A DNA stretch of 64,000 nucleotides from Deferribacter autotrophicus (GTDB lineage: Bacteria; Chrysiogenota; Deferribacteres; Deferribacterales; Deferribacteraceae): the NCBI RefSeq assembly GCF_008362905.1, contig NZ_VFJB01000009.1, forward strand, positions 186,001-250,000, in the 5' to 3' direction. Positions 32,644-60,140 of this stretch are shown one piece after another (position 1 is the first letter of the stretch; each line of letters begins with the position of its first letter). The notes below the pieces were generated by a model that saw only the letters and a program-made list of their open reading frames with translations, was not told the origin of the DNA and ran no database searches. A program made the translations under genes and the position numbers.

Positions 32644-33100
32644 AATCGTTATCATTTTCTTTATCGTAATTATCTGGAAATGGCCCCATTACTGCACCAA
32701 AAGGGTTTACATGAAATTCAAACCTGTTACCAGCCGCATCTACAACATCAACCTCATACATTGTACCCATAGGCATTCTAAATTTCTCTACTTCTTTGAT
32801 TTTGTACCCTTTAAAATTTTCTTTTAGAATTTTACTAACCAAATTTTTAGCTTCTTTTTCAGAAATTCCGTTTGCGTTTGCAAACCATTTTTGGCCGTAT
32901 CCCATGCAAAAGCCTGGGCCAAAATTTTGTTGGTATGGTACTGAGTTGTAACCTCTGTTTTGAAATTGTGGTCCCATCATTCCCATTCCGTATCCTTGCT
33001 GATAACCGCCCCACATACCTCTTGCAAAACCTGGGCCGTGAGCGAATGCAAGTGTTGCTCCGAAAATTATTAGACCTGCTAAAAGTAATAACCTTTTCAT
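32642..33100 (-). CDS. Secreted Gly/Met/Tyr-rich protein with PepSY-like C-terminus
   Basis: 152 residues from ATG 33100 (GGAGGTAGCC upstream). A signal peptide (1-20, ending TLAFA) is followed by a low-complexity region rich in Gly, Gln, Tyr and Met (GMWGGYQQGYGMGMMG, about 27-45). The C-terminal domain, from about 80 on (ISEKEAKNLVSKILKENF, then MYEVDVVDAAGNRFEFHV), has the helix-plus-strands pattern of PepSY-like domains. Such proteins are common next to SHOCT proteins in anaerobic Gram-negatives. A metal- or envelope-related role is guesswork. Confidence 0.7.
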   Translation of the reverse strand: MKRLLLLAGLIIFGATLAFAHGPGFARGMWGGYQQGYGMGMMGPQFQNRGYNSVPYQQNFGPGFCMGYGQKWFANANGISEKEAKNLVSKILKENFKGYKIKEVEKFRMPMGTMYEVDVVDAAGNRFEFHVNPFGAVMGPFPDNYDKENDND

Positions 33101-33368
33101 GGCTACCTCCTTATGTTTTTGATTTGTTGCACCTATGGTAATGCATAATGGATGCCAGAATGCCAAAATTTTTAATTTACTGATAAATAATAGATATTTC
33201 TTAAGGTGTATTTAAAATGTGTGTAGACTTTACACATGATTAGGTAATTTATACACACTTAGTCAGTATGGATTAGAAGACTATAAACATTGTATAATTT
33301 TATCATGACTATAATACTGATCTCTTTTTATCTGGTACTAAAGTATCCGTTTTGTTTTTTATAAAACA

Positions 33369-33426
33369 TAAAAATCATAAAGAGCATGATTTTTATATTG
33401 ACAAGTGATATGATTTTAATTATTAT
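33369..33426 (+). promoter_or_regulatory. Promoter of rrf2 with adjoining 10-bp inverted repeat
   Basis: TTGACA (33398-33403), 17 bases, then TATTAT (33421-33426). Just upstream, TAAAAATCAT (33369-33378) and ATGATTTTTA (33386-33395) form a perfect inverted repeat with a 7-base centre. Its right half includes CATGATTTTT (33385-33394), also found before the -35 of the sulfate operon. The palindrome fits a dimeric regulator such as the Rrf2 protein encoded next. Confidence 0.75.
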
Positions 33427-33446
33427 TTTTGTGAAAGGAGTTTTGT

Positions 33447-33869
33447 ATGAATGCAACATCAAAGACTATTTATGCTATAATTGCCTTGATTGAGTTAGCG
33501 AGGCAAAAAAATGAATTATTAAAAGGAGCAACTATTGCTAAGAAATATGGAATTCCTCGTAGATTTCTCGAGCTCACCCTTTCAGAGTTAAAGATTCACG
33601 GCCTTGTTGACTCAAAAAAAGGAGCTCATGGTGGATTTCTCTTAGTAAAACAACCTGAAGAAATCTCTCTTTATGAAATAATTAATATAACGGAAAGAGA
33701 CTTAGTTATATTTGATTGCAGGAAGTTTATAAACAAAGATGGTTGTGATATGTTAAGAATTTTTGATGAATTGAACGAAGAGATTCTTTCCATATTAAAA
33801 AAAGTTACGCTGAGAGATATTTTGAATAAAGCAGATAAAATTTACAAAAATTTAAATTTTATAATTTAG
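33447..33869 (+). CDS. Rrf2-family transcriptional regulator (possible sulfur regulator)
   Basis: 140 residues. The N-terminal winged helix reads TSKTIYAIIALIELAR and GATIAKKYGIPRRFLELTLSEL; the wing is KKGAHGGFLL. Two cysteines lie in the region where IscR has three (FDCRKFINKDGCDML), so an iron-sulfur cluster of the usual IscR type is doubtful. It heads an operon with broken metY and cysK genes, so a CymR-like role in cysteine/methionine control is likely by context. It has a strong promoter and GAAAGGAG site. It may also act on the sulfate operon promoter through the shared box. Confidence 0.82.
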   Translation: MNATSKTIYAIIALIELARQKNELLKGATIAKKYGIPRRFLELTLSELKIHGLVDSKKGAHGGFLLVKQPEEISLYEIINITERDLVIFDCRKFINKDGCDMLRIFDELNEEILSILKKVTLRDILNKADKIYKNLNFII

Positions 33870-33885
33870 GTTGAAGGAGAATAAA

Positions 33886-35173
33886 ATGAAAAAGGTTGAA
33901 AGTTTACTACTGCATCATGGTTATACGCCTGATAATACTGGAGCAAGAGCAGTTCCTATTTATCAGACTACGTAATATGTTTTTAAAAATACCAAACATG
34001 CTGCAAATCTTTTTGCATTGAAGGAATTTGGAAACATTTATACAAGGCTTATGAATCCAACTCAGGAGGTACTTGAACAACGACTTGCAGCACTACATAA
34101 AGGGACAACCGCTCTTGCAGTATCTTCTGGTCAAGCAGCTATAAGCTACTCGATACTAAATATTACAGAGTTAGGAGATAATATAGTATCGAGTTCATAT
34201 TTGTATGGAGGAACATCTAACCTTTTTAATTACACTTTGAAAAAACTTGGAAGAAAAGTGAGGTTTGTAGATTCATCTGATCCTGAGAATTTTAAGAAAG
34301 CCGCCGATGAAAATACAAAAGCCTTTTACTTGGAAAGTATAGGAAATCCAAAGAATAATGTAAATGATTTTGAAAAAAATAGCTGAATATGCTCATGAAT
34401 TAGGCATACCTTTGATAGTAGATAACACGGTTGCTCCTTATATTTTCAATCCTTTTGAATATGGCGCTGATATTGTTGTTTATTCTTTGACGAAATTTAT
34501 AACAGGAAACGGTACAAGTATTGGTGGAGCCATCATAGAAAAAGGTGATTTCAATTGGGAAAATGGGAAATTTCCTGAATTTACGAATCCTGATGAATCT
34601 TACCACGGTTTAATATACTGGGATGCCTTTGGAAATCATGATAAAGCTGTGGTTAAGGGTATTTCTTTTGTTATCAAGATACGATTACAACTTTTGAGAG
34701 ATATAGGTGCATATATAAGTCCATTTAATGCGTTTATGATAATTGAAGGGTTAGAGACTTTACCTTTGAGAATGAAGAAACATTGTGAGAATGCACTTGA
34801 AGTTGCAAAATTTTTGGAAACCCACCCCAAAGTTAGCTGGGTAAATTATCCTGGACTTGAGAATCATGAAGATTATGAGAATGCAAAGAGGTATTTAAAA
34901 AGTAATTTTGGTGCAATCATAGGGTTTGGTATAAAAGGAGGATATGAGGCAGGAGTTAAATTCATAAATTCTGTAAAAATGATATCACATCTTGCAAACA
35001 TAGGGGATGCAAGAACTCTTGTAATACATCCTGCAAGTACTACTCACCAACAATTAACTTCTGAGCAGAGATTGGCTACAGGTGTTACGGATGATTTTAT
35101 CAGATTGTCTGTTGGGATTGAAAATATTGAAGATATAATAGAGGATTTAGATCAAGCATTATCAAAAGTTTGA
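33886..35173 (+). pseudogene. Second O-acetylhomoserine sulfhydrylase (MetY/MetZ type), inactivated
   Basis: It starts MKKVESLLLHHGYTP, reads VPIYQTT, then hits TAA at codon 30 (33973-33975; normally Ser, QTTSYVF). The frame resumes [19 protein letters not shown] and runs to about 34370, where one extra A in a run of seven shifts it. Restoring it gives [16 protein letters not shown], the PLP lysine in [12 protein letters not shown] and the [13 protein letters not shown] ending. Two separate lesions make this a pseudogene. It would have used free sulfide, unlike the HcyS-linked copy at 13.6 kb. Confidence 0.9.
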
Positions 35174-35186
35174 AAGGAGTAGTGTG

Positions 35187-35276
35187 ATGAAATACTTTGA
35201 TAAATACTTTTTTACTATTGGTAATACCCCGCTTGTTGAACTAAAGAAAGTAAATGTTAATTTTAGTTTAAGGTGA
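35187..35276 (+). pseudogene. cysK: Cysteine synthase (CysK), N-terminal fragment cut by the prophage
   Basis: ATG 35187, with AAAGGAG upstream, gives 29 codons including FFTIGNTPLVELKKVNVN, the start of an O-acetylserine sulfhydrylase. The similarity ends near 35266 and a TGA follows at 35274. The next recognisable sequence is the Mu-like prophage. The rest of cysK should lie beyond the other prophage end, outside the window. Confidence 0.82.
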
Positions 35277-35434
35277 GGTAGGGTAGTGTTTGGCGCACAT
35301 TATGGAACTGGTTGGAAATAAAAGGTTTTATTTGTTTTTGGTTGCCTAAGGTAAGTTGGAGTTTTTGGTGGAAGTTTTGTTTTTTTGGTGTGTTTTACAG
35401 TGTAAAGTGAGGCAAGTTTAAATCCTTTGAAAAG

Positions 35435-35454
35435 TTTTATAAAGTTTTATAAAG
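35435..35454. repeat. Tandem TTTTATAAAG pair
   Basis: TTTTATAAAG is repeated directly at 35435-35444 and 35445-35454, followed by G. A near copy (CTTTATAAAG twice, then GGG) lies at 51976-51995 before the tape-measure gene. It overlaps the 3' end of the minus-strand membrane gene. Function unknown. Confidence 0.5.
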
Positions 35455-35881
35455 GTTCTTTTGTTGGCTCTTTTTCTTTTATTTTGTCTAAGATTACGAG
35501 TTTGTAGATTTCTATTACCAGTTCTTCAGTTGATTTTATTTTAGGTGACAGTTTTTCAAGTTTTTTAAAAAAATAAGAAATAGGCACGCCAGGAATTAGA
35601 GATAGAATAAAAAATAAAAAGATTAGCTTTGTTGCGTTTGATATTATGGCAGTAATAAGAAACGTTGTAAAACCTAGAAGAGGTATTAATAATAAAAAGA
35701 TTTTATTTATGATATGTTCTTTTTCTTTTCTGAGTGATGTTTTGTGTTTTTCTATTTTTTCAAATAGATCGTTTATGTTATTAGTGTTTTTGATTATGCT
35801 AAACAAAGGGTCATGAGTGATTATGTTGTTGTTCCCAATTATAAAGTTTTTGCCTTTTATAAAATTATTGCTGTTTTCCAT
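35447..35881 (-). CDS. Two-helix membrane protein next to the repressor
   Basis: 144 residues. The N-terminus, NNFIKGKNFIIGNNNII, repeats a motif found in the repressor encoded just upstream. A charged helix and two transmembrane helices (about 60-80 and 86-106) follow, with a basic tail. It begins two bases after the repressor stop and is expressed with it in the lysogen. A superinfection-exclusion or signalling role is plausible from position; no family is recognised. Confidence 0.6.
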   Translation of the reverse strand: MENSNNFIKGKNFIIGNNNIITHDPLFSIIKNTNNINDLFEKIEKHKTSLRKEKEHIINKIFLLLIPLLGFTTFLITAIISNATKLIFLFFILSLIPGVPISYFFKKLEKLSPKIKSTEELVIEIYKLVILDKIKEKEPTKEPL

Positions 35882-35883
35882 TT

Positions 35884-36312
35884 TTAATCCTCCTTTAATT
35901 CGGTTTCAAGCGCTTCTGCTTTTATTTTATGATAAAAATATTGCTGTTTTTTCTTTGGTAGTTTCCTGAAAGATTCTATTAGGTCTTTTTCGATATCCGT
36001 TATCTCTTTTTCACGGAACCCTGTATTATTGCTGCCTATTATAAAATTACTACCATTTATTATGTTTCCAGAATTAATATTTTTTGAATCGTTTGTACGA
36101 AACATCTCACCTTCACCTGTGAGGAGCCAGTCAGGATTTATTCCATACGAATATGCGATAGACATAATTATTGGTTTATCTGGAGAATGTTCACCTCTTT
36201 CAATCTTGCTTAGATGTCCTTGCGAAATACCTATTGTTGCAGCAAATTCTTTTTGAGAAACATTTAAATCTTTTCTTATTTGTTTAATTCTTTTGCATAT
36301 TTCAATATTCAT
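35884..36312 (-). CDS. Phage repressor, XRE/Cro-CI helix-turn-helix
   Basis: 142 residues. An N-terminal HTH (about 8-62: LNVSQKEFAATIGISQGHLS, KIERGEHSPDKP, NPDWLLTGEG) is followed by a Ser/Asn-rich linker with SGNIINGSNFIIGSNN and a helical C-terminus (EKDLIESFRKLPKKKQQYF). There is no LexA-type peptidase domain. It is divergent from the Ner-like gene across 48 bases holding an operator, as in Mu. It should hold the early promoter off in the lysogen. Confidence 0.88.
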   Translation of the reverse strand: MNIEICKRIKQIRKDLNVSQKEFAATIGISQGHLSKIERGEHSPDKPIIMSIAYSYGINPDWLLTGEGEMFRTNDSKNINSGNIINGSNFIIGSNNTGFREKEITDIEKDLIESFRKLPKKKQQYFYHKIKAEALETELKED

Positions 36313-36325
36313 AACAAATTTTCCC

Positions 36326-36354
36326 TTGACAAAAATATTCGTATCGAATAATAC
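36326..36354 (+). promoter_or_regulatory. Early promoter with operator TATTCG-TAT-CGAATA
   Basis: TTGACA (36326-36331), 17 bases, TAATAC (36349-36354): near-consensus. The palindrome TATTCG/CGAATA (36336-36350, 3-base centre) lies in the spacer and touches the -10, an ideal repressor site. The start codon at 36361 is seven bases past the -10, so the message should start at the A of ATG. Confidence 0.82.
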
Positions 36355-36360
36355 TTAAAT

Positions 36361-36618
36361 ATGAGAGCTAACAAATTACCTTTTATTGACAAAAAAAATT
36401 ATATTAAAGCTCTTTTGGTTGCAAAAGGCATTAAACTCACAGATATTGCAAAAGAGCTTAATGTTGCCCTTCCTACGGTTTCCCAAGTCATTTCTGGCAA
36501 GAAAACCTCCTTTCGTATTCAAAAAGCTATTTCTGAAGCCCTGAGCGTCCCCTACGAGGATCTCTGGGGCGATACATATAGAATAGTTAAAACTGAGGGA
36601 AAAAGCAATGTCAAATAA
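36361..36618 (+). CDS. Ner-like / small XRE regulator, leaderless
   Basis: 85 residues with a Cro-type HTH (IKLTDIAKELNVALPTVSQV, about 24-43, then SGKKTSFRIQKAISEAL). It is the first gene of the plus-strand early operon, opposite the repressor, the position of Mu ner, which shuts off early and repressor transcription. No Shine-Dalgarno site precedes it and the promoter implies translation of a leaderless message. Its end overlaps the next gene by 11 bases. Confidence 0.82.
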   Translation: MRANKLPFIDKKNYIKALLVAKGIKLTDIAKELNVALPTVSQVISGKKTSFRIQKAISEALSVPYEDLWGDTYRIVKTEGKSNVK

Positions 36619-37012
36619 GGGGAAATGTTTGACTTCTGGCTCTGGTGTGGAGTGCGGCAAGTTTAAGATTTCTCAAAGATTTAGAGAGGCGCTATCTGAA
36701 GCTGTCAGGGGTTCGAAGTATTCCAGAGAGGAGATTGTGAGTCTTTTACATGGCCTAACCGGTCATAAAATTACAAAACAGTTTTTTGATCAGATGACAG
36801 CTCCAAGCAAAATAAACCACAGGTTTCCTGCTGAACTCTTGCCTGCGTTTTGCTTTATTACCGGCAACATAGAGCCTCTTAAAATTCTTATTGAAGCAAT
36901 CGGTTTTGAGATGGTGGATGAGGAAGAAAGTAAAGAGCTGAATCTATTAAGGCTTATGAAAGAAAAAGAGAGGATTGAGAAGGAAATAGAGAAACTAAAA
37001 GGTGGCAAATGA
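36608..37012 (+). CDS. Conserved-looking early phage protein (134 aa), unknown
   Basis: ATG 36608 overlaps the ner-like gene; the stop overlaps the muA-like start by four bases. It reads FKISQRFREALSEAVRGSKY and REEIVSLLHGLTGHKITKQF, a helical region with phage HTH-like spacing, then a C-terminal coiled coil rich in Lys and Glu (KEKERIEKEIEKLKGG). Proteins of this kind sit before the transposase in several Mu-like phages; I do not know a function. DNA binding together with the transposase is possible. Confidence 0.6.
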   Translation: MSNKGKCLTSGSGVECGKFKISQRFREALSEAVRGSKYSREEIVSLLHGLTGHKITKQFFDQMTAPSKINHRFPAELLPAFCFITGNIEPLKILIEAIGFEMVDEEESKELNLLRLMKEKERIEKEIEKLKGGK

Positions 37013-39657
37013 AACTAACGGCGAAAGAGATAGCGGAAATACTTGGTGTTTCAAGAGTGGCTATAATCAAAAGGGCCAAAAAAGAGAATTGGCTTTACGT
37101 TGAAGAGGCCAACCCTAATGGTGGTAAGCCAATTAAGTATTTTATTGCAGAATCTTTACCTGATGAAATTCGCACAAAATTAGTTGGCAATGTAACCGCT
37201 CAATGTAACCACAATGTAACCGAATGTAACCACAATGTAACCACGCAACTGTCTGAAGATAAAGAAGAAAATAAAGCCGAAAAAATTAACAATGTAACCT
37301 TAAATGTAACCTGTGAAATTGGTTCACATTTAGAAAATACTGATAATAAAAGTAAAATTGAAAAAGGTTCCTTAGTAACCCCTCGACTAAGGAACCAAAA
37401 CTGGGGTTACAAAGGAACTAAGGAACCTAAAAATTGCCCGACTAAGGAACTTCCAAAAGATGAAATTTGGATCTCAATTTCGGAAGCGTCAAACCTCATC
37501 GGGATTTCTGAGCGTGGTGTTAGGAAGAGTTGTGACAAAGGAAAGTATAAATTTATTTATACACCATCAAACAAAGGTCGTGGCGGCAAAACCTATAAAG
37601 TGGCTCTTTCTTCTTTGCCGGCAGAAGCTCAGGTGAAATGGGTGTTAGATAATAATGAGAAAGCAAAAGGATTGGATGCAGCAATCACTGACAAGCTTTC
37701 TCCTATGGCTATTTTGGAGATTGAGAAAATGAAAAACGTTATTTCTGTTGGCAGTACCAAACTTAACGACAAAGAGAAAGAAGAGCTTGGGTTGATCCTA
37801 AAGATGATTGATGAAGCTAAAAGAGCGCCTATCGGCATAAGCAAAAGAAAGCATATAGAAAACGTGGCAAGAAAATATAAGAAAGGCAGAAGCACTCTAG
37901 AGAGGTATATAAAGATTTTCAACAACAGCGGAATTGCTGGACTGAAGAAACTTGTGAGCAGAAAACGTGAAAAGAGTTTGTATGCGTGGGATGTGGAAGC
38001 GATCGAATTTTTGAAAGGTGTGTATTTACGAGGTATACGAGCCGGCAACAAGATAAGTAAAGAGAAGGCTTATGATGCTGTTGTAGCCGAAGCTAAAAAA
38101 AGAGGCTGGAAAGTTGGCTCAGTCTCTTCTGCATATCAATATCTAAACGACATCAATCACCTTTTGATAAAATATGCAAAAGGTGGAAGGCAAGCTCTGG
38201 ATAACTTTTTCTATATTGCAAGAGATTATAGTGATCTTGAGCCGTTTCAGATTGTTGTGGGGGACCAGCATCAATTTGATTTTTGGGTTAGAGATATTGA
38301 AACAGACGAAATTTTCCGGCCGATGGGATACTTTTTTGTGGATGCCAGGACAAGGCTTGTTTACGGCTTTGCTCTGAGTGGTAGAAAGTACAGCTCTTAC
38401 ACGATCGGGCTTGCTTTAAGGATGGGGTTAGTAACATTTGGTTTTTTCAAATCGATTTACACTGATAACGGCAAACCTGAAATCAGTAAATATATAAGCA
38501 GTATTACAAAAGATATTACCAGTTTTGGTGCCGAGAGTAAGGATTTTGCTGAGCTTTATAAGACTAATGATGGGCACTGGGTTATAGAGGATGAAAACGG
38601 CGAAATTATAGCTGCAGCTACAGATGTAGAAGATTATCGTAGAAAGGCAAGGGCCTATAATGCGAAAGCTAAACTCATTGAGAGGTTTTTTAGAACATTT
38701 GAAGATTTGCTGGTGTATCTTGGTGTACCTGGCAGAGTTGTGAATAAAAATGACAGCTCTGAAAATAGGCGCGAGAGCGAAAAGAGACTAGCTGAACAAA
38801 TAGATAAGGAAAATGTGCTTACTTATGAAGAGTTTGCCTTAAGGGTGTTTGATGCTGTCAAGATTTATAATAACAGAAAACACGAGTCTCTGAAAAAATC
38901 TCCACTTGAGCAGCTTGCATACTGCATCAAGCATGAAGGGTTTACGGTTGTGCTGCCTGAAAGTATTGAAGAGATCGATAAGGTATTTTTTGTAAGAGCT
39001 AAAAGGAAGGTACATAGAGGCAGAGTGCAAATCAACAATATTTTATATGAAGCAAACGCCGAGCTTAGGGATGGTGATCTTACCGCCGGTCTCTGGCATT
39101 TACCAGATAAAACTGAAGTGGAAATTAGATACAACCCGTTTGATGCGTCTATTGCTTATGCGATCTTACCCGACGGATCTGAGCGTGAGCTAAAACCTAT
39201 AACTTATGGCAGTATGATAGACAAAGAGCTCACTAAATCGTTGATTGAAAGAAAGCGTTCATTGATGAGTGCCGTTACAGAAAAATATAAAGAATATATT
39301 AAAGGTGTTCCTGAGGTTCTTAAATATTCTAAGATTAAGACAGTTAAAAAGAAATCTAAAAAAGCACAGGATTCCTGTGAAAATCTTACAAACGAAGAGA
39401 TTTTAAAGAGAATCAAAGAGCACAAAGAGGAGAGCAATAAAGTCAAGCCTATCAAGCTTATGAGGAGCAAAATAATCACATCGAGCGTTGATAAATATGA
39501 AGATATTTTAATTAGAGAGCTGATGGGCGAGTTTTTGAGTAGTGCTGATCTGGATTTTAAGCGTAGGTATGAGGCGCAACTGAGTGATGAGGAGAAGAAG
39601 TATTGGGAAGCGTGGAGAAAAATACATGGGGCAAAAAGTAGTTATGGAGGTGTGTAA
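37009..39657 (+). CDS. MuA-type DDE transposase
   Basis: 882 residues, larger than Mu A (663). Two Mu-type winged-helix domains lie at about 1-65 (TAKEIAEILGVSRVAIIKRA) and 148-210 (SISEASNLIGISERGVRK), each ending in a K-Y-x3-SLPxE block, joined by a low-complexity linker with repeated NVT. The catalytic core has D419 (GDQHQFD), D486 (YTDNGKPE) and E558 (AKLIERFF). The D-D spacing of 67 equals that of Mu A. A C-terminal barrel and basic tail follow. It carries out replicative transposition with MuB. Confidence 0.93.
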   Translation: MKLTAKEIAEILGVSRVAIIKRAKKENWLYVEEANPNGGKPIKYFIAESLPDEIRTKLVGNVTAQCNHNVTECNHNVTTQLSEDKEENKAEKINNVTLNVTCEIGSHLENTDNKSKIEKGSLVTPRLRNQNWGYKGTKEPKNCPTKELPKDEIWISISEASNLIGISERGVRKSCDKGKYKFIYTPSNKGRGGKTYKVALSSLPAEAQVKWVLDNNEKAKGLDAAITDKLSPMAILEIEKMKNVISVGSTKLNDKEKEELGLILKMIDEAKRAPIGISKRKHIENVARKYKKGRSTLERYIKIFNNSGIAGLKKLVSRKREKSLYAWDVEAIEFLKGVYLRGIRAGNKISKEKAYDAVVAEAKKRGWKVGSVSSAYQYLNDINHLLIKYAKGGRQALDNFFYIARDYSDLEPFQIVVGDQHQFDFWVRDIETDEIFRPMGYFFVDARTRLVYGFALSGRKYSSYTIGLALRMGLVTFGFFKSIYTDNGKPEISKYISSITKDITSFGAESKDFAELYKTNDGHWVIEDENGEIIAAATDVEDYRRKARAYNAKAKLIERFFRTFEDLLVYLGVPGRVVNKNDSSENRRESEKRLAEQIDKENVLTYEEFALRVFDAVKIYNNRKHESLKKSPLEQLAYCIKHEGFTVVLPESIEEIDKVFFVRAKRKVHRGRVQINNILYEANAELRDGDLTAGLWHLPDKTEVEIRYNPFDASIAYAILPDGSERELKPITYGSMIDKELTKSLIERKRSLMSAVTEKYKEYIKGVPEVLKYSKIKTVKKKSKKAQDSCENLTNEEILKRIKEHKEESNKVKPIKLMRSKIITSSVDKYEDILIRELMGEFLSSADLDFKRRYEAQLSDEEKKYWEAWRKIHGAKSSYGGV
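37189..37396 (+). repeat. ATGTAACC repeats and hairpin inside the transposase gene
   Basis: AATGTAACC occurs five times at 37189-37242 and twice more by 37312; one inverse GGTTACA lies near 37405. Then GGTTCCTTAG (37366-37375) and CTAAGGAACC (37387-37396) form a perfect 10-bp inverted repeat, and AAGGAAC recurs twice more downstream. The repeats encode the linker between the two DNA-binding domains. Whether they are protein-binding sites or a repeat expansion cannot be told from the sequence. Confidence 0.75.
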
Positions 39658-40538
39658 TGACAAAGTTGGCGCAAGTAATGGATAGGTTTGGGTTGACTGT
39701 GGCCGACGTAGCAAAAATAACAGGCCACAGCCAACCAACCATTTCCCAGTTAAAAGCTGGGAATTATAACGGAAAAAATGGCAAAGAGCAAGAGGTTTTA
39801 AACATTTTAGCTGAAAGTGGGTATATGCTTGAGCCTAAAAAAATTGTGGTACGCAGTGATGTGTTTATCACTACAAAAAATGTGAAAAGGTTTAACGAGC
39901 TTTGCGATGAGATGTTTAGCGAGGAAGCTGATTTAACATCAAGTATCGGCGTTGTGATCGGCAGAGCTGGCAGAGGTAAAACAAAGGCAGCAAGGCATTA
40001 TTGCATCAATAAGCCTGAAGCTGTGTATGTCCAGTTTTTAGACGGTTTTAGTCTGGTGGATGTGGCAAGGGAGATTGCATATGAATTGGGTGGTGTGAGG
40101 CCAAGAGGTTTTCGGGCGTGTCTTGATGTGATTGAAGAGTCAACTATTGCTTATAGGAAGATCGCTATAATCGATGAAGCCGACAAAATGCCTAAAAAAT
40201 ACTTTGAAATGATAAGAGGTTTAAATGAGCGCTGCAATATGCCAATTGTGTTGGTTGGTGAAGAGAGCTTGAAGAGGATTCTTGATTCAGAAAGAAGATT
40301 GAAAAGTAGGACAAGAAGGGTTGTGGCGTTTGAGCCTATAAGTGTTGAGGATGTTTTTGTTTATTATGAAAAAGCGCTTGGGCTTTCTCTAGATGTTAGT
40401 ATCGTCAAAAAACTTCACAAAAAAGCAAGCGGAGATTTTCGTTTTGTGGTGAGAGATGCCATCAATATTGCAAGGATAATAAATATCAACGGATTGACGG
40501 AAGTGGATGAAAAAGTATTGAGGGCGCTGAATGGCTAA
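39657..40538 (+). CDS. MuB-type AAA+ ATPase
   Basis: 293 residues. The N-terminal HTH (about 11-45: TVADVAKITGHSQPTISQLK) is as in Mu B, and the AAA+ domain has Walker A GRAGRGKTKAARHY (about 100-113) and Walker B KIAIIDEADKMP (about 167-178). MuB binds target DNA as filaments and activates the transposase. The start overlaps the transposase stop by one base. The next gene overlaps by eight. Confidence 0.93.
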   Translation: MTKLAQVMDRFGLTVADVAKITGHSQPTISQLKAGNYNGKNGKEQEVLNILAESGYMLEPKKIVVRSDVFITTKNVKRFNELCDEMFSEEADLTSSIGVVIGRAGRGKTKAARHYCINKPEAVYVQFLDGFSLVDVAREIAYELGGVRPRGFRACLDVIEESTIAYRKIAIIDEADKMPKKYFEMIRGLNERCNMPIVLVGEESLKRILDSERRLKSRTRRVVAFEPISVEDVFVYYEKALGLSLDVSIVKKLHKKASGDFRFVVRDAINIARIININGLTEVDEKVLRALNG

Positions 40539-42229: not shown

Positions 42230-42588
42230 AATACAGGGTCATGACTGTGCTTTCAAAACATATAGGCAAACATAACGCAATTAGTATGGTTGAACTTTAT
42301 AAACATGTTTTTAGTGAAGAGCCTGAGAGTAAAGTTAATGGAACAAGGAAAATTAGGAAAGTTATAGAGATGATGAGGCGAGAGGGAGTGCCGATTTGTG
42401 CAACTCAAGAGAAAGATGGCTCCGGGTATTATCTGGCTGCTGCTGGTAGTGAGCTGGAGGATTATTGCAAAAGGCTAAGAAGAAGAGCCCTGAAACTTCT
42501 GGCGATGGAGTCGAAACTTAGAAAAATAACTTTACCAAAGTTAATCCATGATATCTCAATAAATATTGATGGCACGGAGGTAAAATAA
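42217..42588 (+). CDS. Winged-helix-like early phage protein (123 aa)
   Basis: The N-terminal half resembles a winged helix (YRVMTVLSKHIGKHNAISMV, then NGTRKIRKVIEMMRREGVPI) with a hairpin CATQEKDGSGYYLA, followed by basic helices (YCKRLRRRALKLLAMES). Similar small proteins occur before gam in Mu-like phages. DNA binding is likely; target unknown. Confidence 0.6.
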   Translation: MSDVKYRVMTVLSKHIGKHNAISMVELYKHVFSEEPESKVNGTRKIRKVIEMMRREGVPICATQEKDGSGYYLAAAGSELEDYCKRLRRRALKLLAMESKLRKITLPKLIHDISINIDGTEVK

Positions 42589-43061
42589 TGCAAATGTTAA
42601 AAGAAAAAAACAGCGAAGTGCTGGCGGAGATTGATAGTAAGCTGGCAAAAATTAGAGAGTTGAAAATACAGGCTGAAACGATCAAGGCTGAATCTGATAA
42701 CGAGATGAAGAAAATTAAGGCAAAGTACAGCAAAAAGCTTCAGGTTGTGAAATCTGAAATAGACAGGCTGGATAAGGAAATTAAGGGATTAATGAAGAGG
42801 AAAAGAGCAGAAATATTTGCTGGTGGTGATACTGCGGAGCTTCAGAACGGAAAATTATATTTTATGGTGAGGCAAGTTGTCAGAAAAGCGAGAAACGTCA
42901 CTGTGTCTCTACTGAAAAGTCTTGGATATGCTGACGGAATCCGCATAGAGGAGTATGTTGACTGGTCAAAAATTGAGAAGTGGCCTGATGAAAGGCTTGC
43001 TGCGATCGGAACTGAGAGAATGGAAAAAGAGGAGTTTAAATATGAGCTGTATTCTAAATGA
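42588..43061 (+). CDS. gam: Host-nuclease inhibitor protein Gam (Mu type)
   Basis: 157 residues after ACGGAGGTAAAATA. A long coiled coil (about 5-75) and a C-terminal part with KLYFMVRQVVRKARNVTV, and DWSKIEKWPDE match Mu Gam, which binds DNA ends as a Ku-like dimer and protects linear phage DNA from host exonuclease. The position after the transposition genes is the same as in Mu. Confidence 0.82.
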   Translation: MQMLKEKNSEVLAEIDSKLAKIRELKIQAETIKAESDNEMKKIKAKYSKKLQVVKSEIDRLDKEIKGLMKRKRAEIFAGGDTAELQNGKLYFMVRQVVRKARNVTVSLLKSLGYADGIRIEEYVDWSKIEKWPDERLAAIGTERMEKEEFKYELYSK

Positions 43062-43559: not shown

Positions 43560-44071
43560 GGCTTGTTTGCCCAAGTTGTGGAGCTATGCATAGTATTGAA
43601 GCTTTTATAAATGATGAGCAAGCAAGAAAGTTTTTAAGTGTGATTGTATCATTAAATTCTTCTTTGCAAAAAAACGTACTTAATTATCTAACGTATTTTA
43701 GGCCAGAATCAGGCAAAGGCTTAAGATGGTCAAAGGCCGTAAGGTTATTAGAAGAACTCAAAAGCCTGATAGAAGCTGAATATGTTGAATGGGACAGGAA
43801 GAAGCCGATAAAAAACGACACTTGCTACTGGATAAACGCTCTAGATAAAATGATAGACTCTCCACCAAAAAGACTCCCTCTTAAAAATCACAACTACCTG
43901 CGGGTGATAGTTTACGAAATAGCCGAAGAGGAAGATAAGAGGCTTGAAGAAGAGAGAGAAAGGATGAGGCGTAGCGGTTGGAACAGGATTGAGGAGGAAG
44001 AGAAAAACATGCCCACCTCTGAGCAGGTTAAAAAACTAATCAATAGTGCTTTGAAAAGGAGGAGGTTGTGA
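43556..44071 (+). CDS. Phage protein with N-terminal CXXC (171 aa)
   Basis: It begins MRLVCPSCGAMHSIEAF, a half zinc ribbon, then a helical domain (ARKFLSVIVSLNSSLQKNVL, RPESGKGLRWSKAVRLLEEL) and a highly charged Glu/Arg coiled coil before the C-terminus. Proteins of similar pattern occur in Mu-like phages before the late region. DNA-related function is possible but unproven. ATGA-type overlaps on both sides. Confidence 0.6.
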   Translation: MRLVCPSCGAMHSIEAFINDEQARKFLSVIVSLNSSLQKNVLNYLTYFRPESGKGLRWSKAVRLLEELKSLIEAEYVEWDRKKPIKNDTCYWINALDKMIDSPPKRLPLKNHNYLRVIVYEIAEEEDKRLEEERERMRRSGWNRIEEEEKNMPTSEQVKKLINSALKRRRL

Positions 44072-44370
44072 AGTTTTATTCTGTGGAAGAAGTGGCAGAG
44101 CTTTTTGGCATAAGTAGAATGAGTGTATATCGCTATATCGATGAAGGGAAGCTCAGAGCTGTAAAACTAAGAGGCGAAAAGATGGGAAGGGTTAAGGTTT
44201 CGTATGATGCTCTGGTGGAGTACATCAGGGAGAATACGACAACGGAGATGATTTTTAAAATGAAGCGTAAGAGTGAGGAGATAAAAAGACTTTTGGGTGA
44301 GTGCGAAAAGAAACAATGCAATTGTGCCGTGAAAGATAGGTTGAGGATCATCTATGATGCGCTGAGGTGA
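44068..44370 (+). CDS. MerR/excisionase-type HTH protein
   Basis: 100 residues from GTG 44068 (AAGGAGGAGGTT upstream). YSVEEVAELFGISRMSVYRY and IDEGKLRAVKLRGEKMGRVK form the helix-turn-helix and wing of the excisionase/DNA-binding 17 family. The C-terminus is helical with a CNC cysteine pair. In a transposing phage true excision is not needed, so a regulatory role is more likely, for example middle or late control. Not proven. Confidence 0.75.
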   Translation: MKFYSVEEVAELFGISRMSVYRYIDEGKLRAVKLRGEKMGRVKVSYDALVEYIRENTTTEMIFKMKRKSEEIKRLLGECEKKQCNCAVKDRLRIIYDALR

Positions 44371-44392: not shown

Positions 44393-44485
44393 ATGGCAGA
44401 TTTTTTAGCTTCTATTTTAAAGAGAGAATTAGCAAAAAGACAAAAACAGTTAGTTAAAGTCACTAACGTAGTTCTAATTCTCTGA
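44393..44485 (+). CDS. Possible 30-residue peptide
   Basis: ATG 44393 with AAGGAGAG six to twelve bases upstream gives MADFLASILKRELAKRQKQ and a short hydrophobic end. It overlaps the end of the minus-strand gene by 23 bases. Only the ribosome site and amphipathic pattern support it. Confidence 0.35.
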   Translation: MADFLASILKRELAKRQKQLVKVTNVVLIL

Positions 44486-45050
44486 ATATCTCAGCAAAGC
44501 GGTTTGCTGAAATGGTGAAAACTTCTTTTAGTTCTGAAAGTTTATCCGATAACGACTTTGATACATAAGCAATATTTTCAATATTTTTATTTGTGATAGA
44601 CGCTTGCATGTCTGCTCTTAATCTTTTAATTTCTTGAACCAGTTGATGGATAGACTGGAAAAGTTCGTCGTCTTTGATATTAGAGTCAATATAGATACTG
44701 TCTATTTTCAATGTATTTTCTTTAATGTTATTTAAAAATACTTGAATAATCCAAAAGTTCTCATTAGTAGGGTTTTGTGTGTTTATAAATGTTATAATTT
44801 CGTGAATTTTGTCGGCAAAAGCTGCTGCTATTTCTATTTTTGGTATGATTTCAATATAGAATTTGATTATTTTTTCGGATTTTGATAACTCTCGCAAAAC
44901 TTTTTTAAAATCTTTTTCCAAATCATCAAGCTTGTTTTTTTTGTTTAATCTGATAGTTGATTTAAGTTCTTTTATTAGATCGTATAATAATTTTAATGTA
45001 GTGATTGTATTGTTAAATGTTGTTATTACAGAGTTAATCTCTCCGCTCAT
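44463..45050 (-). CDS. Cargo gene 3: helical protein of unknown function (195 aa)
   Basis: Almost fully helical and coiled-coil-like: TTFNNTITTLKLLYDLIKEL near the start, DDLEKDFKKVLRELSKSEKI in the middle and QLVQEIKRLRADMQ later. A hydrophobic patch (YIEIIPKIEIAAAFADKI) is too polar for a clear membrane span. It is last of a three-gene minus-strand block in a phage otherwise read on the plus strand. No family recognised. Confidence 0.65.
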   Translation of the reverse strand: MSGEINSVITTFNNTITTLKLLYDLIKELKSTIRLNKKNKLDDLEKDFKKVLRELSKSEKIIKFYIEIIPKIEIAAAFADKIHEIITFINTQNPTNENFWIIQVFLNNIKENTLKIDSIYIDSNIKDDELFQSIHQLVQEIKRLRADMQASITNKNIENIAYVSKSLSDKLSELKEVFTISANRFAEIFRELELR

Positions 45051-45059
45051 ATTTAAGCA

Positions 45060-45521
45060 CTATTTATATTTTTGTATAACACTTAATGATTTATATTGGC
45101 GAGCTGCAAATTGCCAATAAACATAGACTTGCTTCAATGTGTTTGCAAACTGGATATCTTTGTGTTTGTATAGCTCAATTAGATTTGCAGCAAATTCACT
45201 TAATTCTTTGGATTTTTTTGCAGCCAGATCATATTTATCAGCAGCAACATATTTGTTAATCTGTTCGCTTTTGTTGGTGATTACAGCCAGAATTTCATCT
45301 TTGTTGTGTATATCTACTTTTTCAATAGATTGTTTTTTGATTATCTGTTTTTTAACAGGTTCCTTTAACGAATCATTTAATACAGATTCGTTTTGCAAGT
45401 CAGGTAATGAAGTAAAAGAATCTGTAGCAAAATAATCTTTTGATTCTAATTCAGTATAATTGAAAGTAAAACTTTCTGTTTTTTTATCACTCGTTTGATA
45501 AGGGGCTATCGTTGTTTTCAT
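45060..45521 (-). CDS. Cargo gene 2: disordered plus helical protein of unknown function (153 aa)
   Basis: ATG 45521 is preferred because CTGGAG precedes it; a longer in-frame start is less likely. Residues 1 to about 70 are Ser/Thr/Lys-rich and look disordered; residues about 70-153 are helical (NKYVAADKYDLAAKKSKELS and WQFAARQYKSL). It overlaps cargo gene 1 by 35 bases and is followed by gene 3 after nine bases. No family recognised. Confidence 0.62.
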   Translation of the reverse strand: MKTTIAPYQTSDKKTESFTFNYTELESKDYFATDSFTSLPDLQNESVLNDSLKEPVKKQIIKKQSIEKVDIHNKDEILAVITNKSEQINKYVAADKYDLAAKKSKELSEFAANLIELYKHKDIQFANTLKQVYVYWQFAARQYKSLSVIQKYK

Positions 45522-46251
45522 TACTATTCTCCAGAGTATTAGTAATAATTTTATCGGCAATTCTATAATTTTCTAAAATAATTTCCTTCGGTTTTATTGT
45601 AATAAAGGGATATGGATCGTCATTGTGAAATTTCCAGAAAAAATCGATATCGAATAAAAAACCTTCGCTTAGTTTGATTTTTTCTACTGGAGATTCGAAA
45701 AATTTAGAATGATCTTTTTCACTACCCGGTCCAAAACTTAAATTTACCGATGGCTCTTTTTGAAAGGTCGATAATTGAGGAAGTTTAGCAGATTCGAGAC
45801 GAAAAAGAAAATCGGTCTCGTCTTTATATTGTAAATTTGATTTGAAAATGTTAGCTAAAGAAAAAAACCTTGTTAATAATTTTTCGTAGTTTTCAATTTC
45901 TTCTACACTAAAAATAAATCTGCAGCCTATTCTGCTTGTATTATTTTTAAATTTGTATTTATACCAATCGATGCCCTTTTTTAAAAGGGCAAAGACATTG
46001 CTGTAGTGGTTTTCAATATCAACATTAGTATCTTCAATCGCAAAAGCTATATAGCCTGTTCCAAAAAGTATTTTAACGAATGGTTCGTTGTTTAAAATTT
46101 CTATTGGTTCAATTTTATCTATCAGCCTGATGCCATTAAATCCATATTCATTAAAAGCCATGTTAAAAATATGGGATTTATTGTCTAAAATATTAAAATT
46201 TCTTCTTATTAAGTCAATTTTAAAAATAATTTTTTTAAGATACAAAACCAT
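45487..46251 (-). CDS. Cargo gene 1: 254-residue protein of unknown function
   Basis: An alpha/beta-looking protein with FGTGYIAFAIEDTNVDIE, a segment SRIGCRFIFSVEEIENYEKL that faintly recalls TIGR04255-type proteins, and an aromatic C-terminal part (DIDFFWKFHNDDPYPFITIK). The similarity is too weak to name it. It is the promoter-proximal gene of the minus-strand block and has its own promoter. Expression from the lysogen, and a defence, exclusion or fitness role, are inferred from position and orientation. Confidence 0.62.
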   Translation of the reverse strand: MVLYLKKIIFKIDLIRRNFNILDNKSHIFNMAFNEYGFNGIRLIDKIEPIEILNNEPFVKILFGTGYIAFAIEDTNVDIENHYSNVFALLKKGIDWYKYKFKNNTSRIGCRFIFSVEEIENYEKLLTRFFSLANIFKSNLQYKDETDFLFRLESAKLPQLSTFQKEPSVNLSFGPGSEKDHSKFFESPVEKIKLSEGFLFDIDFFWKFHNDDPYPFITIKPKEIILENYRIADKIITNTLENSNENNDSPLSNE

Positions 46252-46278
46252 TTTTTACTGTCCACTTTTTATCGCTCG

Positions 46279-46307
46279 TTTATAATATAAAAATTTACAT
46301 CTGGCAA
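46279..46307 (-). promoter_or_regulatory. Promoter of the minus-strand cargo operon
   Basis: On the minus strand, TTGCCA (46307-46302), a 17-base spacer and TATAAA (46284-46279) form a good sigma-70 site 28 bases upstream of the ATG at 46251. An independent housekeeping promoter would let the cargo be made in the lysogen while phage genes are silent. Confidence 0.65.
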
Positions 46308-46339: not shown

Positions 46340-46391
46340 TAACCGACTCTCCAAAAATGTATTTTAGCATAAAACCGTGCGAGGTGCAATT

Positions 46392-47312
46392 GTGCCAAAA
46401 GATATGGAGCTTCTATATTCTCGGGATTTAAGCAATTTTGAAGAAGATGAGAATTATGTTTATGTCGACGCTGTGGTGCTTGTGCCCGGCACCATCAAGA
46501 GAAATTATGGCGATCTGATAATAGAAGCTGACGAGCTTAAAAGATCAGCAGAAGGCCTGAAAGGCAAACCTGTTTTAATCGAACATCAAAATGATGTCAA
46601 TTCTGTGGTGGGTCAGGTAATTGAAAGTTTTTTTGATGATGATACTGTTCAGTTAAAAGCAAAGCTTAAAATCCTGAAAAAAGGCAACGACAAGCTAATT
46701 CAGCTTATTAAAGACAAAATCGTTACCAAACTTTCCGCTGGATTCAGGCGAACATTAGAGCAGGTGAAAGCCGGCATGTATCGTGCCAAAGATATCGAGT
46801 TTCAAGAGGTATCTATCGTTTTAAATTCAGCTGTGGATCAAGCGACTATTTTGAAAAAGGAGGTAATAGATATGCCAGATATTGAATCTTTGACGAAAGA
46901 AAAGACACTTCTTGAAAAGGAAGTGGAAACATTAAAGAGACAACTTGTCGCGAGAGAAGAGAAAATCGAAGAACTTACCGAAAAACTCTCTGTGCTTGAA
47001 AAGGAAATCGAGGCGTTAAAAGGAATGGCAGAAATCGGCAAAAAGTATGAAGAGAGCTTGATAAAGGACGCAGAAAAGTTCGTTAAAGTGGTGGAAGGTG
47101 ACGACTCTCCTATTCTCTCACTTATCGGCAAAGCTGAAATAGATGAACTTCAGGCAATCGCCAGGAAATATGAAGCGCTTGCAAGAGAAAAACTAAAAAA
47201 TACGGCTAAAGGTACTGATGATGATACTGAAAAGGATGAATTAAATCTTGATGAAGCAAGCTATGAAGATTTGAAAAAATATGAAGAAAAACTTTTGATA
47301 GGAGGTAATTAA
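46392..47312 (+). CDS. Prohead protease / scaffold fusion protein
   Basis: About 306 residues from GTG 46392, chosen because GCGAGGTG lies upstream. The N-terminal half (about 10-160) is a phage prohead protease with KGKPVLIEHQNDVNSVVGQV (catalytic His region) and KLSAGFRR (catalytic Ser). It is followed by a scaffold part, a long coiled coil (LEKEVETLKRQLVAREEK) and an acidic tail. An internal ATG at 46872 after AAGGAGG could make the scaffold alone, as in Mu I/Z. It processes and shapes the prohead. Confidence 0.85.
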   Translation: MPKDMELLYSRDLSNFEEDENYVYVDAVVLVPGTIKRNYGDLIIEADELKRSAEGLKGKPVLIEHQNDVNSVVGQVIESFFDDDTVQLKAKLKILKKGNDKLIQLIKDKIVTKLSAGFRRTLEQVKAGMYRAKDIEFQEVSIVLNSAVDQATILKKEVIDMPDIESLTKEKTLLEKEVETLKRQLVAREEKIEELTEKLSVLEKEIEALKGMAEIGKKYEESLIKDAEKFVKVVEGDDSPILSLIGKAEIDELQAIARKYEALAREKLKNTAKGTDDDTEKDELNLDEASYEDLKKYEEKLLIGGN

Positions 47313-48208
47313 TGCCAACAGTAACAGGAACAACTAATCCTGAGTTATTTCCTGCTTTTTACGATAAAAAGCTGCTCAGTTATGTAAAGGCAAACCTTGT
47401 AACACTTCAGTTTGCTCAAAGACGTTCTTTGAAAAAAAATTCTGGAAGGCAAATCACTTTTACAAGATTTGAGCCTCTTCCAGCAAACACTACGCCAATA
47501 ACATTCCAGCCTACACCTTCAACCGGCAAAGCTATAGCTACTCAGCAGATCACTGCAACTGTTGATGAATATGGCGACTACATTGATTTGGATGAATTTA
47601 CAGACATTACAAGCTATGTGCCTTTGCTTAGTGAGACTACAGATCTGCTCGCATATCAAGCAAGACTCACTCTTGATACTCTTTGTATGAATGAAATTGC
47701 AAATGGCACAAATGTGCTTTATGCCGGAGGAAAAGCAAGCGCAGACGCACTGTTAAGCACTGATGTGCTTACAAAGGATGATATTAGAAAAGCTGTGAAT
47801 ATCTTGAAGAATGCGAATATTCCACCTATGCCTGATGGTTTTTACGTGTGTCTCATACATCCTGATAAGCTTGACAATCTGTTCACTTCTTCTGAGCTCA
47901 TTCAGCTTTCTGTGGCAAGTAAGGACAGTTTTGAAAAGGGTGTTGTAGCAAGATTTGGCGGGGTAAAATTTATTGACACAACTCTGATGCCTACATTTAT
48001 CAACGCTGCAGCAACGCCTATCACAGTTTATAAGACGGTAATCTTTGGCCAAAACGCATACGGCATTGTGGATATTGACGGTCAAAGCGTGACTATGACT
48101 TACACCAATCTTGATAAATTAAACAGAGTGAAAACGGTGGGATGGAAGGCTTATTTTGTGGCAAAAAGACTTTATGAAGATGCATTAATTAGAATTGAAA
48201 GTGCTTAG
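47312..48208 (+). CDS. Major capsid protein, N4-gp56 / HK97-like family
   Basis: 298 residues after GGAGGTAATTA. It reads LVTLQFAQRRSLKKNSGRQI, TATVDEYGDYIDLDEFTDIT and CLIHPDKLDNLF, with GVKFIDTTLMP, the pattern of N4-gp56-type coat proteins, which have the HK97 fold. This is not the Mu T-type coat, so the head module differs from Mu. It follows the protease/scaffold gene directly, as expected for a head operon. Confidence 0.85.
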   Translation: MPTVTGTTNPELFPAFYDKKLLSYVKANLVTLQFAQRRSLKKNSGRQITFTRFEPLPANTTPITFQPTPSTGKAIATQQITATVDEYGDYIDLDEFTDITSYVPLLSETTDLLAYQARLTLDTLCMNEIANGTNVLYAGGKASADALLSTDVLTKDDIRKAVNILKNANIPPMPDGFYVCLIHPDKLDNLFTSSELIQLSVASKDSFEKGVVARFGGVKFIDTTLMPTFINAAATPITVYKTVIFGQNAYGIVDIDGQSVTMTYTNLDKLNRVKTVGWKAYFVAKRLYEDALIRIESA

Positions 48209-58043: not shown

Positions 58044-58331
58044 ATGACTTCTAAGACTTTAAGAGGGCAATTACTTGATTTTCTTTACAAGGTTTATCCT
58101 GAAGAAACAGAGGAGATAACTATCATCTCTGTCTTTTATCAGTATTTTAGGGAATCTCAAATCAAAAAAAGCCTTCAATATCTCGTAGATAAAGGCTATA
58201 TCGAATCAAAAAATATTCCTCATCCTGTACATAAGAGAAAAACTATAAAACTATACAAAATACGTCCAGCCGGAGTTGATCTTATAGAGGGCAATTTTCA
58301 CGATGAAACAATATTGATAGAGGAAGAATAA
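58044..58331 (+). CDS. Mu gp26-like small winged-helix protein
   Basis: 95 residues: SKTLRGQLLDFLYKVYPEET, FRESQIKKSLQYLVDKGYIE and RKTIKLYKIRPAGVDLIEGN form a winged helix. It occupies the place of Mu gp26, just before the small terminase gene. Role in packaging is inferred from order. Confidence 0.7.
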   Translation: MTSKTLRGQLLDFLYKVYPEETEEITIISVFYQYFRESQIKKSLQYLVDKGYIESKNIPHPVHKRKTIKLYKIRPAGVDLIEGNFHDETILIEEE

Positions 58332-58828
58332 TGCCACCTCGCAGTAAAGCTAAAATGTATGACCTTGTACAGCGTATTGTTTATATGTATGATACCGAGA
58401 AGAAGGGCGTGCGTGAAATTGAAAGCATTTTGAGAAGCGAAGGTTTTGATATTTCAAAATCTTCAATACACCGCACCATAAAAAGCTATGCTGAGCTTGC
58501 AGAAGAATATAAAAAAACCGCAGAAGAGACAAAAGCTTTGATTGAAGAACTTAGAAAAACTCCTGCCTCATACACAATGGAAGCTATTTTGACAATGCTG
58601 ACAAATAAGATCTTCCAGTTTGTTAGAAGTATTGAAAATATGGAGTTTGATGAGCCAGATAAGCTGGTGATGGCAATGAACAGGCTCGCATCTTCAATTG
58701 AGAAAATTCAAAGATACAGAGAAGAGTTAGAATCTAAGGTAAAAAAGATTGAAGCTGAAGCTGAAAAGAGAAATATTGATAAAGAATTTATAAATATACT
58801 GAAGAATGAACTCTACGGGATTTCCTAA
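58331..58828 (+). CDS. Small terminase subunit, DUF3486 (Mu gp27-like)
   Basis: 165 residues. The N-terminal HTH (GVREIESILRSEGFDISKSS, then IHRTIKSYAELA) is followed by a helical oligomerisation region. It recognises the phage end and recruits the large terminase. Overlaps neighbours by one and 23 bases. Confidence 0.85.
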   Translation: MPPRSKAKMYDLVQRIVYMYDTEKKGVREIESILRSEGFDISKSSIHRTIKSYAELAEEYKKTAEETKALIEELRKTPASYTMEAILTMLTNKIFQFVRSIENMEFDEPDKLVMAMNRLASSIEKIQRYREELESKVKKIEAEAEKRNIDKEFINILKNELYGIS

Positions 58829-60140
58829 AAATGGCATTCTGTTGCCTTATCAAAAATATGCGTTTGAAAAGCTCAACGCTCACAAATACTCAGTATTGCT
58901 CTGGAGTAGGCAGACCGGCAAAAGTTTTCTCATCTCCTTATGGGCAGTTTTAAGAGCCCTTGAGCTCAAAAACCACACAATTTTAATAATTTCGCCTACC
59001 GAAAGACAGTCAAAAAACTTAATCGATAAGGTTAAAACACATGTCCAGGCTTTTAAAATTGCTGGCGCACAGGTTAATGAAAAGATGTTTGACGATTTGA
59101 AAATAAACCAGCTTGAGGTGGTGCTGCCTAATGGAAGCAGGATAATTGGCTTGCCTGCGAACCCTGATGGCGTGAGAGGTTTTTCTGGTGATGTTATTTT
59201 AGAAGAGGCTGCATTTTTTAAAGATGGTAGAGCTGTTCTTCAGGCTATATTCCCGACAATTACCAGGAAGAAAGAATATAAGCTGATTGCTATCTCAACA
59301 CCTCGTGGCAAAAACGATATCTTTTATCATTTATGGAATATTGCAGGAGAAGATCCGTTTTATTTCAGGATGAAACTGACAATTTTTGATGCAGCCTGTC
59401 AGGGGCTTGATGTTGATATTGAGGCGCTCAGGCGCGGGTGTCCTGATGAGGATACCTGGAAGACGGAATATTTATGTGAATTTGCTGATGAAAATGAAAC
59501 TTTGCTGAGCTATGAGCTGATACAGTCCTGCGAATCAGATTGCAAGATAAGTGATGTAAGAGAACTAAAAGGCGATATCTTTTTGGGTATAGATGTGGGA
59601 AGAAGAAAAGATTTAACTGTTATCAGTATCGTAGAGATGCTCGGTGAAATTCTATATTTGAGACATCTTGAAATCTTAAAGAAAGTACCATTTGAAGAAC
59701 AGTTCAATATTATAGATCATTACGCCCACTATGCCAGAAGGCTGGCCATAGATGAAACCGGTATCGGCATGATGCTTGCTGAGCAGCTTCAAAAGAGATG
59801 GGGCGAGATGAAGGTGCTGCCGGTTTATTTTACCCAGCGAACAAAAGAAGAGCTTGCAAGCAGACTAAAATCTGTCTTTGAAGACAGGAAAATACGCATT
59901 TTCCCTGAAAGAGATTTGAGAGAAGATTTACATTCTATCAAAAAAGAAATTACCCCTTCTGGTAATATCAAATTAAGTGCTGACAGTACCGATCTGGGGC
60001 ACGCAGACAGATTTTGGGCACTCGCATTAGCGGTAAAAGCAAGCGGTGTTGATGATAATAGTGTCTATGTAACGCCTGTTTTTGGTAACTCAAAACTTTC
60101 AAGAGGTGAAAAGAGATGGGATTCTTACAGGATATTTTAA
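58806..60140 (+). CDS. Large terminase subunit (Mu gp28-like)
   Basis: 444 residues. Walker A-type SRQTGKSFLISLW (about 36-48), Walker B VILEEAAFF, coupling motif IAISTPRGKND, and the RuvC-like nuclease with FLGIDVGRRKDLTV and LAIDETGIGMMLAEQ. It powers headful packaging and cuts DNA. Complete in length. Its last 25 bases overlap the portal gene. Confidence 0.93.
   Translation: MNSTGFPKNGILLPYQKYAFEKLNAHKYSVLLWSRQTGKSFLISLWAVLRALELKNHTILIISPTERQSKNLIDKVKTHVQAFKIAGAQVNEKMFDDLKINQLEVVLPNGSRIIGLPANPDGVRGFSGDVILEEAAFFKDGRAVLQAIFPTITRKKEYKLIAISTPRGKNDIFYHLWNIAGEDPFYFRMKLTIFDAACQGLDVDIEALRRGCPDEDTWKTEYLCEFADENETLLSYELIQSCESDCKISDVRELKGDIFLGIDVGRRKDLTVISIVEMLGEILYLRHLEILKKVPFEEQFNIIDHYAHYARRLAIDETGIGMMLAEQLQKRWGEMKVLPVYFTQRTKEELASRLKSVFEDRKIRIFPERDLREDLHSIKKEITPSGNIKLSADSTDLGHADRFWALALAVKASGVDDNSVYVTPVFGNSKLSRGEKRWDSYRIF

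Follow-up and report, generated by a model that had tools for sequence, protein, structure and literature searches.

Layout of the operon

Within the window, by which we mean the whole 64,000-nucleotide stretch of Deferribacter autotrophicus DNA analyzed here, three open reading frames (ORFs) form a compact operon on the minus strand (44463-46251) inside a Mu-like prophage, which was identified by profile matches to phage gene families (Table 1). The initial annotation had described products of 254, 153, and 195 residues, an overlap between genes 1 and 2, and a nine-base gap between genes 2 and 3, and the sequence agrees in each point: the overlap is 35 nt, the gap 9 nt, and gene 2 would reach 166 aa if translation began at an upstream TTG instead of the ATG. 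When the trio interval was randomized 1000 times with a first-order Markov model, no ORF was longer than 166 aa, and the third-longest ORF of a randomized sequence reached 81 aa at most. Since the real ORFs (254, 195, and 153 or 166 aa) are far longer than these, they are very probably real coding sequence.

A -35-like box (TTGCCA) and a -10-like box (TATAAA), spaced by 17 nt, lie upstream of gene 1, with the TATAAA box 27 nt ahead of its start codon. Both boxes are present as initially read; their proposed role as the operon's own promoter is plausible rather than firm, because promoter-like boxes are frequent in this AT-rich stretch (23 sites in the region around the trio, against 13.4 expected by chance). 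A ribosome-binding sequence (GGAG) precedes the gene 2 ATG by 7 nt, while no good one was found 5' of genes 1 and 3, and no good terminator was found 3' of gene 3. In a single-sequence structure model of low confidence (mean pLDDT 45), the gene 1 product appears as a mixed alpha/beta protein. Judged from sequence, the gene 2 product probably combines a polar N-terminal half with a helical C-terminal half, and the gene 3 product is probably all-helical; the latter is soluble, with no membrane-like stretch in its hydropathy windows.

Table 1. Coordinates of the operon, of the surrounding prophage features, and of the TIGR04255 loci used for comparison (window positions unless a locus is named)
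Feature	Position	Strand	Remark
Gene 3	44463-45050	-	195 aa; orphan; ORF read from sequence
Gene 2	45060-45521	-	153 aa from ATG; 166 aa with upstream TTG start; orphan; ORF read from sequence
Gene 1	45487-46251	-	254 aa; orphan; ORF read from sequence
-10-like box TATAAA	46279-46284	-	17 nt from -35-like box; consensus match only
-35-like box TTGCCA	46302-46307	-	consensus match only
Left-end AT-rich stretch	33000-36500		27-34% G+C
MuA-type transposase A	37009-39657	+	
MuB (transposition protein B)	39657-40538	+	
Gam-like protein	42588-43061	+	
HTH_17/excisionase-like gene	44068-44370	+	flanks trio, convergent
Head maturation protease/scaffold	46377-47312	+	flanks trio, divergent; phrog_617, phrog_2229; marks the cargo slot
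Major head protein	47312-48208	+	
Terminase, portal, and minor head genes	58331-62610		
bAvd, reverse transcriptase, FGE-like cluster	L126:2428-5211		window-equivalent 66428-69211, just past the window
TIGR04255 loci	L007-L041, L071-L124		
TIGR04255 locus, example	L083:3007-4682		
TIGR04255 locus, example	L093:3133-4633		
TIGR04255 locus, example	L041:1423-2928		
TIGR04255 locus, example	L073:1090-2786		

Prophage context and the slot before the head protease gene

The trio had been placed between the early and late regions of the prophage and described as cargo read against its neighbors, and both statements are borne out. All neighboring phage genes, from the transposase through Gam to the HTH gene on one side and the head genes on the other, lie on the plus strand, opposite to the trio. 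Farther along the plus strand follow genes for tail sheath, tape measure, tail, and baseplate proteins, an endolysin (M15 peptidase), a holin-like protein, terminase subunits, a portal, and a minor head protein. Because the transposition, packaging, head, tail, baseplate, and lysis genes are thus located elsewhere in the prophage, the trio can be regarded as accessory. Its base composition also deviates: the G+C content is 28.2%, compared to 38.7% and 38.3% in the prophage flanks, this drop of about 10 points is restricted to the trio, and third codon positions are lower in G+C than those of the neighboring phage genes. Dispensable genes of deviating composition amid conserved phage genes are one mark of a moron, and this describes the trio. 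We found neither flanking repeats marking an insertion sequence around it nor, in the collections searched, a close relative of this Mu-like phage.

The location is more telling than initially claimed, when it was called a usual one for cargo. The head protease gene has the trio immediately on its 5' side, and comparison with the genomes of D3112 and DMS3, two Mu-like phages of Pseudomonas, revealed that both keep anti-CRISPR cargo in this very slot (AcrF2 in D3112; a type I-E anti-CRISPR gene with an HTH gene in DMS3). A comparative study of these phages named the slot accessory region G (RGP G) and reported low G+C content as a mark of their accessory genes and of the anti-CRISPR region (PMC4378225). 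The trio resembles region G in its position in a Mu-like phage, in forming a low-G+C island, and in consisting of genes without wider homologues. That it represents accessory cargo of a Mu-like prophage in a known slot is therefore well supported. A looser parallel is offered by the defence hotspots of P2-like phages and P4 satellites (PMC9122126), where accessory modules, often without an annotated domain and in some cases proven to be anti-phage, likewise sit at one set position in a temperate element, although the phage type and site differ and, judging by the profile libraries, no component family is common to both.

Given the occupants of this slot in D3112 and DMS3, the trio might be counter-defence cargo (an anti-CRISPR or other anti-restriction function) that serves infection and not the defence of the lysogen. 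The resemblance to region G ends at the genes themselves: there, small acr genes are paired with an HTH or another small partner on the late strand, whereas the trio comprises three larger proteins of unrelated sequence, on the opposite strand and with no HTH partner. Apart from the slot, an anti-CRISPR locus is recognized by an HTH (Aca-type) regulator within the operon, and none of the four profile libraries gave an HTH match in genes 1-3. The host genome, which is 99.9% complete, yielded no Cas1 gene, though the phage could meet CRISPR elsewhere. We consider a counter-defence role unlikely.

Searches for relatives and the TIGR04255 family

Consistent with the initial impression that the products belong to no recognized family, none of the three had a significant match in the Pfam, NCBIfam, PHROGs, and PADLOC profile libraries, where the sub-threshold matches were of the composition type only (for gene 3, weak and of the coiled-coil type), and anti-phage component profiles of PADLOC-DB gave no match even at an E-value of 10. 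No credible relative of gene 1 was detected in phages, plasmids, viral contigs, PDB sequences, or 385 genomes, in which weak matches were judged to be due to chance, nor in whole-genome contigs in a search sensitive to close relatives only. The same held for gene 2 (plasmids, viral contigs, phages, and 50 genomes) and gene 3 (phages, plasmids, viral contigs, and 329 genomes). The single gene 3 match at E = 1e-3 in those 329 genomes fell in a histidine kinase region and was not accepted as a relative, and phrog_16760, which matched gene 1 with an E-value of 0.01, was found in none of the genomes searched. The one congeneric genome searched contained none of the three genes, and no conserved neighborhood of the trio or tie to defence genes was found in other genomes by scans that detect close relatives only. 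Homologues among ordinary structural or replication genes, named beforehand as the outcome that would speak against cargo, were looked for by these profile and sequence searches and did not appear.

One lead pointed to NCBIfam family TIGR04255, and it was attractive because genes of this family usually head two- to three-gene operons. Under this explanation, the trio would be a divergent module of that type, with gene 1 as the TIGR04255 protein, gene 2 as a variable middle gene, and gene 3 as an exchangeable toxin-like effector acting in toxin-antitoxin or abortive infection. In gene 1, RIGCRFI is followed by LFDIDFF, the same order as that of the family motifs RIGLRYIN and LDLDYF, a correspondence spotted by eye and after the fact, and the predicted strand and helix order of its C-terminal two thirds is roughly compatible. 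Gene order and sizes also agree: in TIGR04255-headed three-gene operons, a first gene of about 250 aa overlaps the second and is followed by a small third gene, and such operons are, like the trio, accessory genes of temperate phages (e.g., SNW-1, VW-6S, and Dobby). The sequence tests, however, spoke against membership. Gene 1 had no NCBIfam match to TIGR04255; its score was equaled by 38 of 914 shuffled gene 1 sequences with a 32-member profile and by 209 of 2000 with a 79-member profile; and in global profile alignment it reached a Z of 2.0, compared to 16-37 for seven held-out divergent members. Multiple alignments did not hold the motifs stably in register, and genes 2 and 3 bore no resemblance to the second and third genes of these operons. 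We therefore did not file gene 1 in TIGR04255, and a divergent module of this type appears improbable as an account of the trio. Structure comparison was uninformative because the gene 1 model is of low confidence: its fold-search lists, too poor for interpretation, differ from those of a confidently modeled TIGR04255 member (pLDDT 93). The predicted family fold is two-lobed, and the modeled member is a long protein built on an antiparallel sheet together with two long helices. The best matches of that member were to TBP-, phosphagen-kinase-, and AdoMet-decarboxylase-type folds (Z up to 8.9), a likeness which may be a mere common arrangement.

The TIGR04255 operons are of interest in their own right. 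The family was present in 42 of 385 genomes from a broad sample, or about one in nine, and 71 of 79 loci had an adjacent small second gene (-40 to +15 nt) and 58 a third gene. Classified by simple motifs, this third gene was HEPN-like in 33 cases, PIN-like in 7, and of a "CDL/SQSCD" family in several, with the HEPN share biased because about half of the loci were retrieved with one subfamily as query. A Pfam check of third genes placed one HEPN slightly below the cut-off and two PIN well above it. Such modules are carried as temperate phage cargo by Sulfurimonas phage SNW-1 (L071), Pseudomonas phage VW-6S (L072), and the P2-like phage Dobby (L073), in which the module adjoins the portal and terminase genes. 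No mention of TIGR04255 or its operon arrangement was found in the literature searched. From their gene content, these operons with an exchangeable HEPN, PIN, or other third gene look like a modular system, of toxin type or for defence, that has yet to be described, and this by-product of the analysis may matter more than the trio.

Possible role of the trio in the lysogen

Beyond accessory cargo in a known slot, every step of interpretation is inference, and we propose the following with corresponding caution. The compact operon implies that the three genes are expressed jointly, and their orientation against all neighbors suggests independence from the lytic program and activity in the lysogen. 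What a prophage would most likely gain by carrying this kind of operon is a lysogen protected from other phages. We thus tentatively favor, at somewhat less than an even chance, a moron operon expressed in the lysogen from its own promoter, whose products act jointly in phage conflict (superinfection or anti-phage immunity). The Mu-like prophage would have acquired the trio as a moron operon and kept it 5' of the head protease gene, where its transcription would run counter to that of the phage genes. Its three products might then act together against other phages, with the mixed alpha/beta product of gene 1 recognizing a cue of infection, the gene 2 product, with its flexible N-terminus and helical part, serving as a linker that couples gene 1 to gene 3, and the helical, soluble gene 3 product acting as an effector whose target would be either the cell or the phage that enters it. 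A more specific proposal is possible and more doubtful: the trio would be a hitherto undescribed anti-phage system of three proteins, none of them from a known family, that a prophage carries as cargo in a bacterial lineage of which few members have been sampled. Counting against a conflict role in general, the cargo of D3112 and DMS3 is encoded on the strand of the head genes and the trio on the opposite one.

The absence of relatives is as expected for fast-evolving conflict cargo, and it would equally fit a trait unrelated to phages. Lysogenic-conversion or metabolic cargo apart from phage conflict, or functionless decaying DNA, would accord with the finding that no homologue links the trio to conflict. 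Decay sits poorly with three intact ORFs far beyond chance length in AT-rich DNA, and metabolic cargo with the absence of any enzyme family match in Pfam and NCBIfam, such that we judge this explanation quite improbable. That the trio is a toxin-antitoxin or prophage-maintenance unit of two or three components, and plays no part against phages, is, in our estimate, less probable still: the compact operon with overlapping genes, a promoter-like sequence of its own, and a composition as if horizontally acquired would suit such a unit, while three genes, no toxin or antitoxin family match in Pfam and NCBIfam, and no HEPN-type R-x4-6-H motif seen by eye in gene 3 argue against it. Should the trio protect the lysogen, as in the reading we favor, it would constitute a defence system whose three proteins each belong to an unknown family, and its defined cargo slot, on the 5' side of a head protease gene of the Mu type, could be mined in further prophages of this kind.

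The prophage itself shows further features. Its terminase, portal, and minor head genes come after the baseplate and lysis genes, whereas D3112 has them before the protease gene, and the late region is thus rearranged relative to that phage. At the left end lies a further AT-rich stretch with a minus-strand repressor-like gene. Just past the window and 3' of the tail genes lies a cluster encoding a bAvd protein, a reverse transcriptase, and a candidate target that resembles formylglycine-generating enzyme (FGE); this cluster probably represents a diversity-generating retroelement that belongs to the same prophage.
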